NCBI GenBank assembly: GCA_022568195.1
Contig: JADFFS010000004.1
Span: 1 to 56,549, forward strand
From: Chloroflexota bacterium
Lineage (GTDB): Bacteria; Chloroflexota; Dehalococcoidia; Lucifugimonadales; UBA3495
Direction: 5' to 3'
Length of the DNA: 56,549 nucleotides
The stretch's first letter is position 1. Each line of letters starts with the position of its first letter. Shown here in pieces: positions 49,701 through 51,573 of this stretch. Below the pieces are notes generated by a model. It was not told where the DNA came from and searched no databases. It worked only from the letters and a program-made list of their open reading frames with translations. The position numbers and the translations under genes are program-made.

Positions 49701-49799
49701 TTAGAAGGACCGCATTCCGATCACACCCGTGAACCTAAAGTCCAATAACACCACCGCCAGAAGCGTGGACTCGGCCAGTCGCCGCCAGGGCTCGATCAC
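49701..49799 (-). CDS. possible 32-codon ORF overlapping the HMA gene end
   Basis: A GTG inside the HMA stop (GTGA overlap) opens a frame translating VIEPWRRLAESTLLAVVLLD and so on to TAA at 49701. It could be a coupled small protein, but there is no family match and no proper ribosome site. Listed because it would be the last gene of the selenoprotein operon. Confidence 0.2.
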   Translation of the reverse strand: MIEPWRRLAESTLLAVVLLDFRFTGVIGMRSF

Positions 49800-50011
49800 G
49801 TAACCGGAACGCTCTCGTAGCCTATTTGATTAAGTGCTTCCTGGACCGCTTCAACCGTCAACACTGACGGCTCGTACTCCACCTTCAACGTCCTGGACTT
49901 TGCGTCACCGCTGATTTTGCCAATCCCCTCCAGCCGGCCGACGGCCAGGCGGATGGTCATGACTCAACCGTCGCAGGTTATGCCAGGAACCTTCAGTTGA
50001 ACGCTTTCCAT
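49796..50011 (-). CDS. HMA-domain selenoprotein (MerP/CopZ-like), CxxU motif
   Basis: A frame from ATG 50011 to TGA 49796 contains one internal TGA (49964-49966). Read as selenocysteine (U16), it gives KVPGITCDGUVMT near the N-terminus and VEYEPSVLTVEAVQEALNQI then GY later. This is a complete heavy-metal-associated domain in which the second cysteine of the metal motif GMTCxxC is selenocysteine. AGGGAGG precedes the ATG at normal spacing. A hairpin with a G-starting loop lies 21 nt after the TGA. At 71 residues and with no signal peptide or span it should be cytoplasmic. Its likely role is to bind a soft metal or relay a redox signal to the CcdA-like neighbour; metal identity is inference. 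Confidence 0.85.
49934..49948 (-). promoter_or_regulatory. predicted bacterial SECIS hairpin of the HMA gene
   Basis: In the mRNA, stem CTGGCC/GGCCGG with a 3-nt loop GUC begins 15 nt after the UGA; the loop starts at nt 22. One U-G pair is included. A G at the first loop position and this distance match the bacterial SECIS rule as I know it. Folding software was not run. Confidence 0.7.
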
Positions 50012-50051
50012 CAGAACCTCCCTGTATTTGGAATCACCATGCCCAATCAGA

Positions 50052-50906
50052 CTACCTGGGGAGAACCAACCGGTCAAATACCCCTGGGTTCGTGCTGGCA
50101 TAGATCAGGGCAGCGCCTACCAGGATGATCAGACCGGTGGATACCGCCTGAATCCGCCGCCCCCATACCCTGAGAGGAACGGCTAGGGCCGGCCCGAATG
50201 AAGCGCCCAAGAATAACATCGTGAAGATTAACAGCCCCATGGTAACGGCGAAGATCAGGAACGCCCCCACGCCGGTGAGAAACCCGCCAGCGGCGACAGC
50301 GAAGACCGCAACTGCGGCCAGAAATGGTCCGGTTCAACCTACGCCTACCAGAACGAAGCCCGCGCCGAAGAGGTAGCTGCCCCGGGGAGTTGGTTTACCC
50401 AGGGCGCCTTCCCAAACGCGGCTGCCCAGGCCCATCGTTTGTCCGACCAGGGGTAAACGGCTGGTCTGGCCCGTCAGGTGCAGTACCGCCACGGCCACAA
50501 GGAAAATGCCCACCCCAAGCTGTACCCAGCGGAAATGTGGGGCGATCAGGTCTTTTGTCCCAGCGCCGAGAAAGGCCACGATTATTCCCAGGGCGATCAA
50601 AAGGCTCATGGCGCCCAGGCTGGCTGCCAGGCCCAGCCCTGCCCGGCGCCGTACGCCCATCCCACCGTCCCCTCCGAAGGCGAGGAATCCCGGCAGCGCG
50701 GGCATGCCACACGGGTTGAAGGTGGCGGCAACCGCGGCAATGAATGCTACCAGAGGCAGACTAATGGCGTTTAAATCACCGGGGCGTAAAAGTTGGCTCC
50801 AGAAATAGAGCAGGACGAGGACTCCACCGGTCACCACCGCCACAAAAATCGCCCCGGCGCCAATCCGTTGTAGGGTTAGGCTAGAAGTAGTCGAATCTGT
50901 ACTCAT
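50052..50906 (-). CDS. CcdA/DsbD-like membrane selenoprotein (Sec at residue 191)
   Basis: Conventional calling stops at TGA (50334-50336) after 190 codons, but the same frame stays open for 93 more codons to TAG at 50052. The join is GVGUTGPFLAAVAVFAVAAG, which is the second CcdA cysteine segment (usually GCxGPFLAAV), with U replacing Cys. The first redox cysteine is C66 in FNPCGMPALPGF. About seven spans are seen: one extra N-terminal span (about 17-37) and six in the CcdA fold. CcdA-type proteins pass electrons from cytoplasmic thioredoxin across the membrane through this pair, here C66-U191. GGGAGG lies 6 bases before the ATG. An HMA selenoprotein gene follows 40 bases later. Confidence 0.88.
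50304..50319 (-). promoter_or_regulatory. predicted bacterial SECIS hairpin of the CcdA-like gene
   Basis: In the mRNA, stem GGCCGC/GCGGUC (one G-U pair) with loop AGUU starts 14 nt after the UGA; the loop starts at nt 21. The second loop base is G. Size and spacing are almost the same as in the HMA gene. Confidence 0.75.
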
Positions 50907-50931
50907 ATGCCGCCTCCCGGAAAAGTCAATC

Positions 50932-51030
50932 CTATCTAATGCTCGTCATGGTTGCCCTAATGTGGCCACACCGCTCGTTGATCACTGCCTTTCCTAACAA
51001 TTGGTATACCAGGATAGTCTTGGCTGCCAT
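50932..51030 (-). CDS. possible 32-residue ORF between merR-like and ccdA-like genes
   Basis: ATG at 51030 preceded by AGGAGG at 5-6 bases, then 32 codons (MAAKTILVYQLLGKAV and so on, one Cys at 21) to TAG. No family match. The strong ribosome site makes translation plausible; it could be a leader peptide or an unrecognised small member of the operon. Confidence 0.35.
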   Translation of the reverse strand: MAAKTILVYQLLGKAVINERCGHIRATMTSIR

Positions 51031-51048
51031 AACTCCTCCTAATTCCAA

Positions 51049-51513
51049 TCAAGATTCTAGGCGTGCACTGCCCAGTGGTTCAGCCCACCCCAAGCTTGAA
51101 GGGGCTACTTTAATCCCGCTCTGTTCGATGATGGAGCAAATGTTGCCGCCAAGAGGCCGGCAGTCCACCAGGCTTGTCGCCTGATCTCTCAGCGATTCCA
51201 GTTCCTCTTTGAAGCCCAGGAGGTCCTGAATGACCGTCTCAATTTGAGTCACCTTTTCCTGTAATAAAGACCGCACGTGCACGCAAGTTGGTTCGCTCCA
51301 GTCGTGCAGATGCAAGATTCCCTTGATTTCATTCAGGGAGAGCCCCAGGCGTTTGGCTTTGAGTATGAACGCCAGTCTGGCCAGGTCGGGCTCGGCGTAG
51401 GACCGGTATCCAGAGTCGGTTCTTGGGGGATCCGGGATCAGGCCCTCAGCCTCATAAAACCTGATTGTTTTGGTCGATAGTCCGGTGGCCTTGGCCAACT
51501 CACCAATTTTCAC
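51049..51513 (-). CDS. MerR-family metal-responsive regulator
   Basis: Winged-helix N-terminus VKIGELAKATGLSTKTIRFY and EAEGLIPDPPRTDSGYRSY identify MerR proteins. The long dimerisation helix and three cysteines, C77, C118 and C126, are arranged like the Hg-binding triad of MerR (C82, C117, C126 in Tn501) and of the lead sensor PbrR. The GTG at 51513 is the start, since AAGGAGG lies 7 bases before and the promoter overlaps any longer frame (to 51573). It heads the operon with the two selenoprotein genes. The inducing metal, probably soft (Hg, Pb, Cd or Cu/Au), cannot be fixed from sequence. Confidence 0.88.
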   Translation of the reverse strand: MKIGELAKATGLSTKTIRFYEAEGLIPDPPRTDSGYRSYAEPDLARLAFILKAKRLGLSLNEIKGILHLHDWSEPTCVHVRSLLQEKVTQIETVIQDLLGFKEELESLRDQATSLVDCRPLGGNICSIIEQSGIKVAPSSLGWAEPLGSARLES

Positions 51514-51541
51514 CAGCGTCCTCCTTGGGCGACTAATCTGG

Positions 51542-51573
51542 ATTATAAACCTTCCATTCGGATGGAATGTCAA
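51542..51573 (-). promoter_or_regulatory. MerR-type promoter/operator
   Basis: On the minus strand TTGACA (51568-51573) and TATAAT (51542-51547) are separated by 20 bp, the overlong spacing used by MerR activators. The spacer holds a dyad, ttccattcggatggaa on the plus strand (51552-51567), with six-base perfect arms. Transcription would start just before the regulator gene, so the operon is probably autoregulated. Confidence 0.9.

Follow-up and report, generated by a model that had tools for sequence, protein, structure and literature searches.

Resistance to mercury and to copper has been reported to involve members of the DsbD family (PMC4608589), and CcdA-domain proteins have been annotated as mercury transporters in actinobacteria (PMC12195606). 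As for selenocysteine (Sec), Sec-containing MerT and HMA proteins are found in a 2026 inventory of 119 families (PMC13188914), and a Sec-containing MerP was listed from ocean sampling in 2008 (PMC2398784). Here we describe a locus of an uncultured Chloroflexota bacterium where, in the order of transcription on the minus strand, a MerR-type gene is followed by a CcdA/DsbD-type gene and then by an HMA gene, the latter two each having one in-frame TGA ahead of its own end. The window, i.e. the whole stretch of DNA that was analysed, has 56,549 nucleotides, and the features concerned are as follows.

51542..51573, minus strand: MerR-type promoter/operator, TTGACA-TTCCATCCGAATGGAAGGTT-TATAAT, with a 20-bp spacer
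51049..51513, minus strand: MerR-family metal regulator, GTG start, 154 aa
51004..51030, minus strand: remnant of a lost glutaredoxin-like gene (MAAKTILVY) between the MerR and CcdA-like genes; the homology to locus L061 ends at 51004
50052..50906, minus strand: CcdA/DsbD-type membrane protein, predicted selenoprotein, 284 aa, with C66 and U191
50334..50336, minus strand: in-frame TGA, predicted Sec191 of the CcdA-type protein, at the second invariant Cys position
50304..50319, minus strand: SECIS-like hairpin GGCCGC-AGTT-GCGGTC, 14 nt past the CcdA-type TGA
49796..50011, minus strand: HMA protein, predicted selenoprotein, 71 aa, CDGU motif, signal peptide not apparent
49964..49966, minus strand: in-frame TGA, predicted Sec16 of the HMA protein (CDGU)
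49930..49948, minus strand: SECIS-like hairpin CTGGCCG-TCGGC-CGGCTGG, 15 nt past the HMA TGA
1984..3963, minus strand: selB, selenocysteine-specific elongation factor (TIGR00475, 350 bits, cut-off 242)

Relatives of the CcdA-type protein were sought in the window's order, in 400 genomes of the phylum and in a second order; the CcdA gene of genome G207, which is frameshifted and runs off its contig, was excluded from the counts, and that of G658, with one TGA and one TAG, from both the tree and the counts. An in-frame TGA had been predicted at the second redox cysteine of a CcdA-like gene, and it is indeed there: codon 191 is TGA in the window and in 15 relatives, i.e. in 16 loci, and a Cys codon in three others (G206, G486 and G516). 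In an alignment of ten members, which have 23-66% identity to the window protein, the invariant positions include P65, C66, G190, C/U191 and G193, and the two conserved Cys positions of the membrane domain (C66 and C/U191), the hallmark of DsbD/CcdA, are situated in NPC/SPC and GxG[C/U]xGP motifs, placed as in CcdA. The window protein itself has no match to Pfam DsbD_TM (PF02683) or to NCBIfam and passes no family threshold; its CcdA-like identity, as given in the original prediction, is instead supported by two Cys relatives of the same clade, L085 and L086, which reach 30.5 and 28.9 bits against a DsbD_TM cut-off of 27.1, and by BLAST, where it matches a CcdA-like protein of ordinary type encoded by this genome. 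Moreover, all CcdA-type members form one clade in the tree (support 100/100), apart from the ordinary CcdA-like proteins that these genomes also encode, and the tree calls for no fewer than three switches between Sec and Cys in this family; for example, the Cys member of G206 adjoins the Sec member of G221 within a Sec group.

As to structure and wider occurrence, a five-sequence AlphaFold model was poor (pLDDT 52) and gave no meaningful Foldseek match in the PDB, PDB sequences searched with a profile built from the CcdA-type alignment gave no match, and tblastn of plasmid records with the Sec and the Cys version returned none either, while one scan of genome contigs yielded six loci, all in Chloroflexi MAGs. 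In the distant members L096, L104, L105, L108 and L085, a membrane-anchored protein (..PLVGGYAEGEEIAFLHTEAS..) with no function assigned lies beside the CcdA-type gene. Near the Sec members of G422 and G374 (L090 and L107), no MerR or HMA gene was found; L107 shares larC-like and rlmN-like neighbours, named by eye, with L087, L088 and L103.

The HMA protein of the window reaches 54.5 bits with Pfam PF00403 (cut-off 24.8), and no specific NCBIfam model is above its cut-off. Its TGA at residue 16 takes the place of the second metal Cys, just as had been predicted. Across eight loci the HMA protein has Sec: in the window and in G024 it replaces the second metal Cys (both CDGU), and in G633, G608, G651, G652, G648 and G645, all of the other order, the first one (UxxC). 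A Sec-containing CcdA-type protein is paired with a Cys-containing HMA protein in G221, G010 and G011, and both partners have Cys in G206, G486 and G516; the reverse pairing was not seen, none of the three Cys-type CcdA genes having a Sec HMA partner. By eye, an N-terminal hydrophobic stretch is recognized on the HMA proteins of G608, G633, G651 and G652, which may therefore face outward like MerP, and none is apparent in the window, whose HMA protein is thus probably cytosolic.

For the MerR-type gene, the original prediction had assumed a promoter of its own with a 20-bp spacer and a span up to 51573. The gene is real and the spacer is confirmed (51573-51542), but the span has to be shortened: the TTG at 51573 is the first triplet of the gene's own -35 box TTGACA, and the GTG at 51513, which is preceded by a Shine-Dalgarno-like AGGAGG, is the better start. 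Within the spacer lies the dyad TTCCAT-CCGA-ATGGAA. Contig C27, which belongs to this genome too, bears a mer operon whose MerR gene is preceded by a promoter identical to the whole promoter/operator of the window over 32 bases. The MerR copy on C27 is 89.5% identical in DNA to that of the window, and the window MerR may serve both operons; the copy (L061, about 6368-6882) reads in two frames, by a frameshift or an assembly error. C27 is like the window in GC and tetranucleotide make-up, although the genome has an estimated contamination of 6.6%.

The C27 operon is arranged as MerR-Grx(U)-MerA-HMA-CcdA-like-Trx-TlpA(U), where MerA scores 527 bits and the CcdA-like protein has Cys and passes DsbD_TM. 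In the window operon merA is absent, and it is not a mer operon in this respect. Of the Grx gene, which is intact, with UxxC, in L058 and L061, the window retains just the initial 27 bases; a deletion has thus probably removed Grx, rhodanese and MerA from its operon. Among the relatives, G010 and G011 (L057 and L060) have the order MerR-HMA-CcdA(U)-MerA, with 548 bits for the MerA of L060 (cut-off 454). G024 has a MerA from which the first 117 positions are missing, a regulator that is ArsR-like by eye, a rhodanese-CBS protein with UxxxxU, CcdA(U), HMA(U) and a TlpA-like lipoprotein with UPTC, and G207 has MerR-Grx(U)-rhodanese-CBS(UxxxxU)-3' MerA remnant-broken CcdA. For the members of the other order in G608, G633, G645, G648 and G651, no MerA occurs within the stretch read; this, like the absence of merA from the window operon, counts against the reading as a mercury module given below.

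Several other genes with TGA were noticed in these surroundings. The TlpA-like UPTC lipoprotein, found at the end of the C27 mer operon (L061 10384-10899) and also in L054 (7074-7553), is likely a further selenoprotein, with a SECIS-like hairpin present. A glutaredoxin-like UxxC gene follows MerR in L061 (6910-7146) and L058 (3997-4227) and stays under the NCBIfam Uxx-star cut-offs, and a rhodanese-CBS protein with two Sec (UxxxxU; L058 4305-5045 and L054 9091-9765) resembles the rhodanese part of TsoB, but is fused to CBS.

How might such an operon work? By a little, we lean towards reading it as an Hg(II) transport module of the DsbD family in a Sec version. We infer that MerR would open its own promoter on sensing a soft divalent metal, which is most likely Hg(II); that the CcdA-type protein would use the thiol/selenol pair C66/U191 to carry Hg(II), i.e. 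metal and not electrons, inward across the membrane; and that the HMA protein would take it by ligand exchange on CxxU and pass it on to MerA, encoded here in the second operon under the identical operator. The more complete picture, where a DsbD-type electron carrier has turned into an Hg carrier whose pair delivers to a Sec HMA protein by ligand exchange, with Sec in both partners and the HMA Cys concerned differing between two Chloroflexota orders, is plausible but tentative as a whole.

A serious rival, though we judge it somewhat unlikely, is an electron relay from a cytoplasmic thioredoxin over C66/U191 to a TlpA-like reductase outside the membrane, serving thiol repair under metal stress, with the HMA protein as a separate metal scavenger. 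The homology to electron carriers through DsbD_TM and the CcdA-like position of the Cys pair agree with such a relay, as does the Sec TlpA-like lipoprotein close to the module in G024 and on C27 (on C27 along with a thioredoxin), and we count these points against transport. However, a thioredoxin-like partner is beside the CcdA-type gene in G024 only and was found beside no other member, whereas the HMA gene adjoins it in 14 loci, window included, and HMA together with MerR occurs in nearly all readable members; the separation of the family from the ordinary CcdA-like proteins in the tree also argues against the relay. The original prediction spoke of metal uptake, efflux or a redox relay. This could be narrowed as far as the metal is concerned, since the module is joined to MerA in two relatives and an identical operator controls a second, MerA-containing operon, which makes Hg the likeliest one; sequence data cannot tell a flow of metal from one of electrons.

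Transport might also concern another soft metal, Cu(I) or Cd/Pb/Zn, with the HMA protein as a CopZ-like chaperone, which we regard as unlikely. The best model for the HMA protein is the copper-binding TIGR00003 (52.7 bits, cut-off 62), a P-type ATPase with two HMA domains is near in G608 and G651, and the window operator resembles operators of the copA type. The regulator gives evidence on both sides. It reaches the cut-off of none of the metal-specific NCBIfam models (CadR-PbrR 106.9 of 151), has 93 bits with the MerR Hg(II) regulator model TIGR02051 (cut-off 150.85), and scores best with CadR/PbrR and ZntR rather than MerR, which counts against the Hg reading, and the metal sensed cannot be named from these profile scores. 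It also has a C-x7-C loop (DCRPLGGNIC) and, as in divalent sensors, an extra Cys at the position where CadR, PbrR and Bacillus MerR have one (EPTC); this Cys speaks against another soft metal in place of Hg(II), and so does MerA as the immediate neighbour of the module in relatives from the window's order.

Judging from codon conservation and the translation machinery, both the CcdA-type and the HMA TGA very probably encode Sec, and the presence of two selenoproteins under a MerR regulator, as originally predicted, is strongly supported. Besides selB, which had been placed in the same window and is confirmed there, the genome has selA (563 bits, cut-off 268), selD (372 bits, cut-off 125) and tRNA-Sec with anticodon TCA (67 bits, cut-off 47). 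A search of the genome for selA, selD and tRNA-Sec had been proposed, and the absence of selA, selD or selC, or TGC/TGT at both sites, was named as what would tell against the prediction; all three were found, and both sites read TGA. The selD gene (G000 C68:6280-7194) has one in-frame TGA itself, i.e. it is a selenoprotein gene. selB is above its cut-off in 13 of the 13 relatives' genomes tested, Cys carriers included, and thus does not separate Sec from Cys carriers. Past the TGA, dN/dS between the window and G024 is 0.19 for the CcdA-type gene (0.215/1.122) and likewise 0.19 for the HMA gene (0.321/1.673). TGA as a Trp codon was ruled out, for TGA is also the stop codon of the MerR and HMA genes, and the genome has tRNA-Sec. 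Reading the TGAs as stops, as errors in the sequence or as signs of dead genes, which the rearranged locus, the Grx remnant upstream and the missing MerA could suggest, is extremely improbable given one codon that is TGA in 16 loci, the constraint past it and the full Sec machinery.

A GC-rich hairpin had been predicted 20-21 nt downstream of each TGA; this holds for the loops, which lie at about 20 nt, but not for the stems, which start at about 14-15 nt. The CcdA-type hairpin is GGCCGC-GGTC-GCGGCC in its own order, although the loop is AGTT in the window itself, and its counterpart in the other order is TGGCC-GGTCT-GGCC. In that other order the HMA stems are CGGGCGC-GGTC-GCGTCCG or GGCTTC-GGTC-GAAGC[CT], 10-11 nt past the TGA; the stems differ and the loop is the same. 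The hairpins of TGA genes stand at a fixed distance from the TGA and mostly have a GGUC loop, which resembles the GGUCU loop of E. coli fdhF, and in Cys relatives they are missing, weaker or displaced. Random synonymous recoding equals the observed CcdA stem score at P 0.05-0.27 per gene, i.e. single hairpins are not significant, the CcdA stretch being Ala-rich and GC-rich and thus easily folding by chance; on this control, SECIS was rejected as a stand-alone proof. Rfam gave no match in the window.

Altogether, our analysis would add a CcdA/DsbD-type membrane protein to the selenoproteins, the 2026 inventory (PMC13188914) naming none with Sec in the membrane domain, and presents a matched selenoprotein pair within one metal operon. 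For Sec in a stand-alone CcdA-type membrane protein, that inventory, NCBIfam and a full-text search of the literature yielded no record; a closer case is possible in a 2025 mSystems paper on selenoprotein neighbourhoods. The natural Cys and Sec versions at one site, including a Cys member in a Sec group, make the benefit of selenium in metal handling directly testable, and the operon suggests an unrecognised mercury route in Chloroflexota.

Among the known systems, TsoB (NF045694, rhodanese/DsbD fusion-like) unites a UxxxxU rhodanese with a DsbD-like part, and only its UxxxxU pair is given as Sec in the inventory; in G024 and G207 a UxxxxU rhodanese-CBS gene stands separately near the CcdA-type gene, and the CcdA-type protein of the window has no NCBIfam match. 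The UxxU protein of NF041115 is, like the HMA protein here, small and carries Sec in its metal motif, but the HMA protein of the window has 44.2 bits with this model (cut-off 95), and the motif is CxxU here and UxxC in the other order instead of UxxU. With MerT/MerP, the MerT/CopZ fusion-like selenoprotein NF045683 and the C/SxxU of PF02411, the operon shares a membrane carrier plus HMA plus MerR, with MerA in relatives, and Sec at the metal-binding position; it differs in the membrane part, which is of DsbD type and matches no MerT model. Finally, the CcdA-type protein is like DsbD/CcdA (PF02683, TC 5.A.1) in being a membrane protein of helices whose two Cys positions lie in NPC/SPC and GxGCxGP motifs, two relatives passing the Pfam model, and unlike them in that the second Cys is very probably Sec, that it is partnered by an HMA protein in an operon under MerR, and that the family stands as a separate clade.
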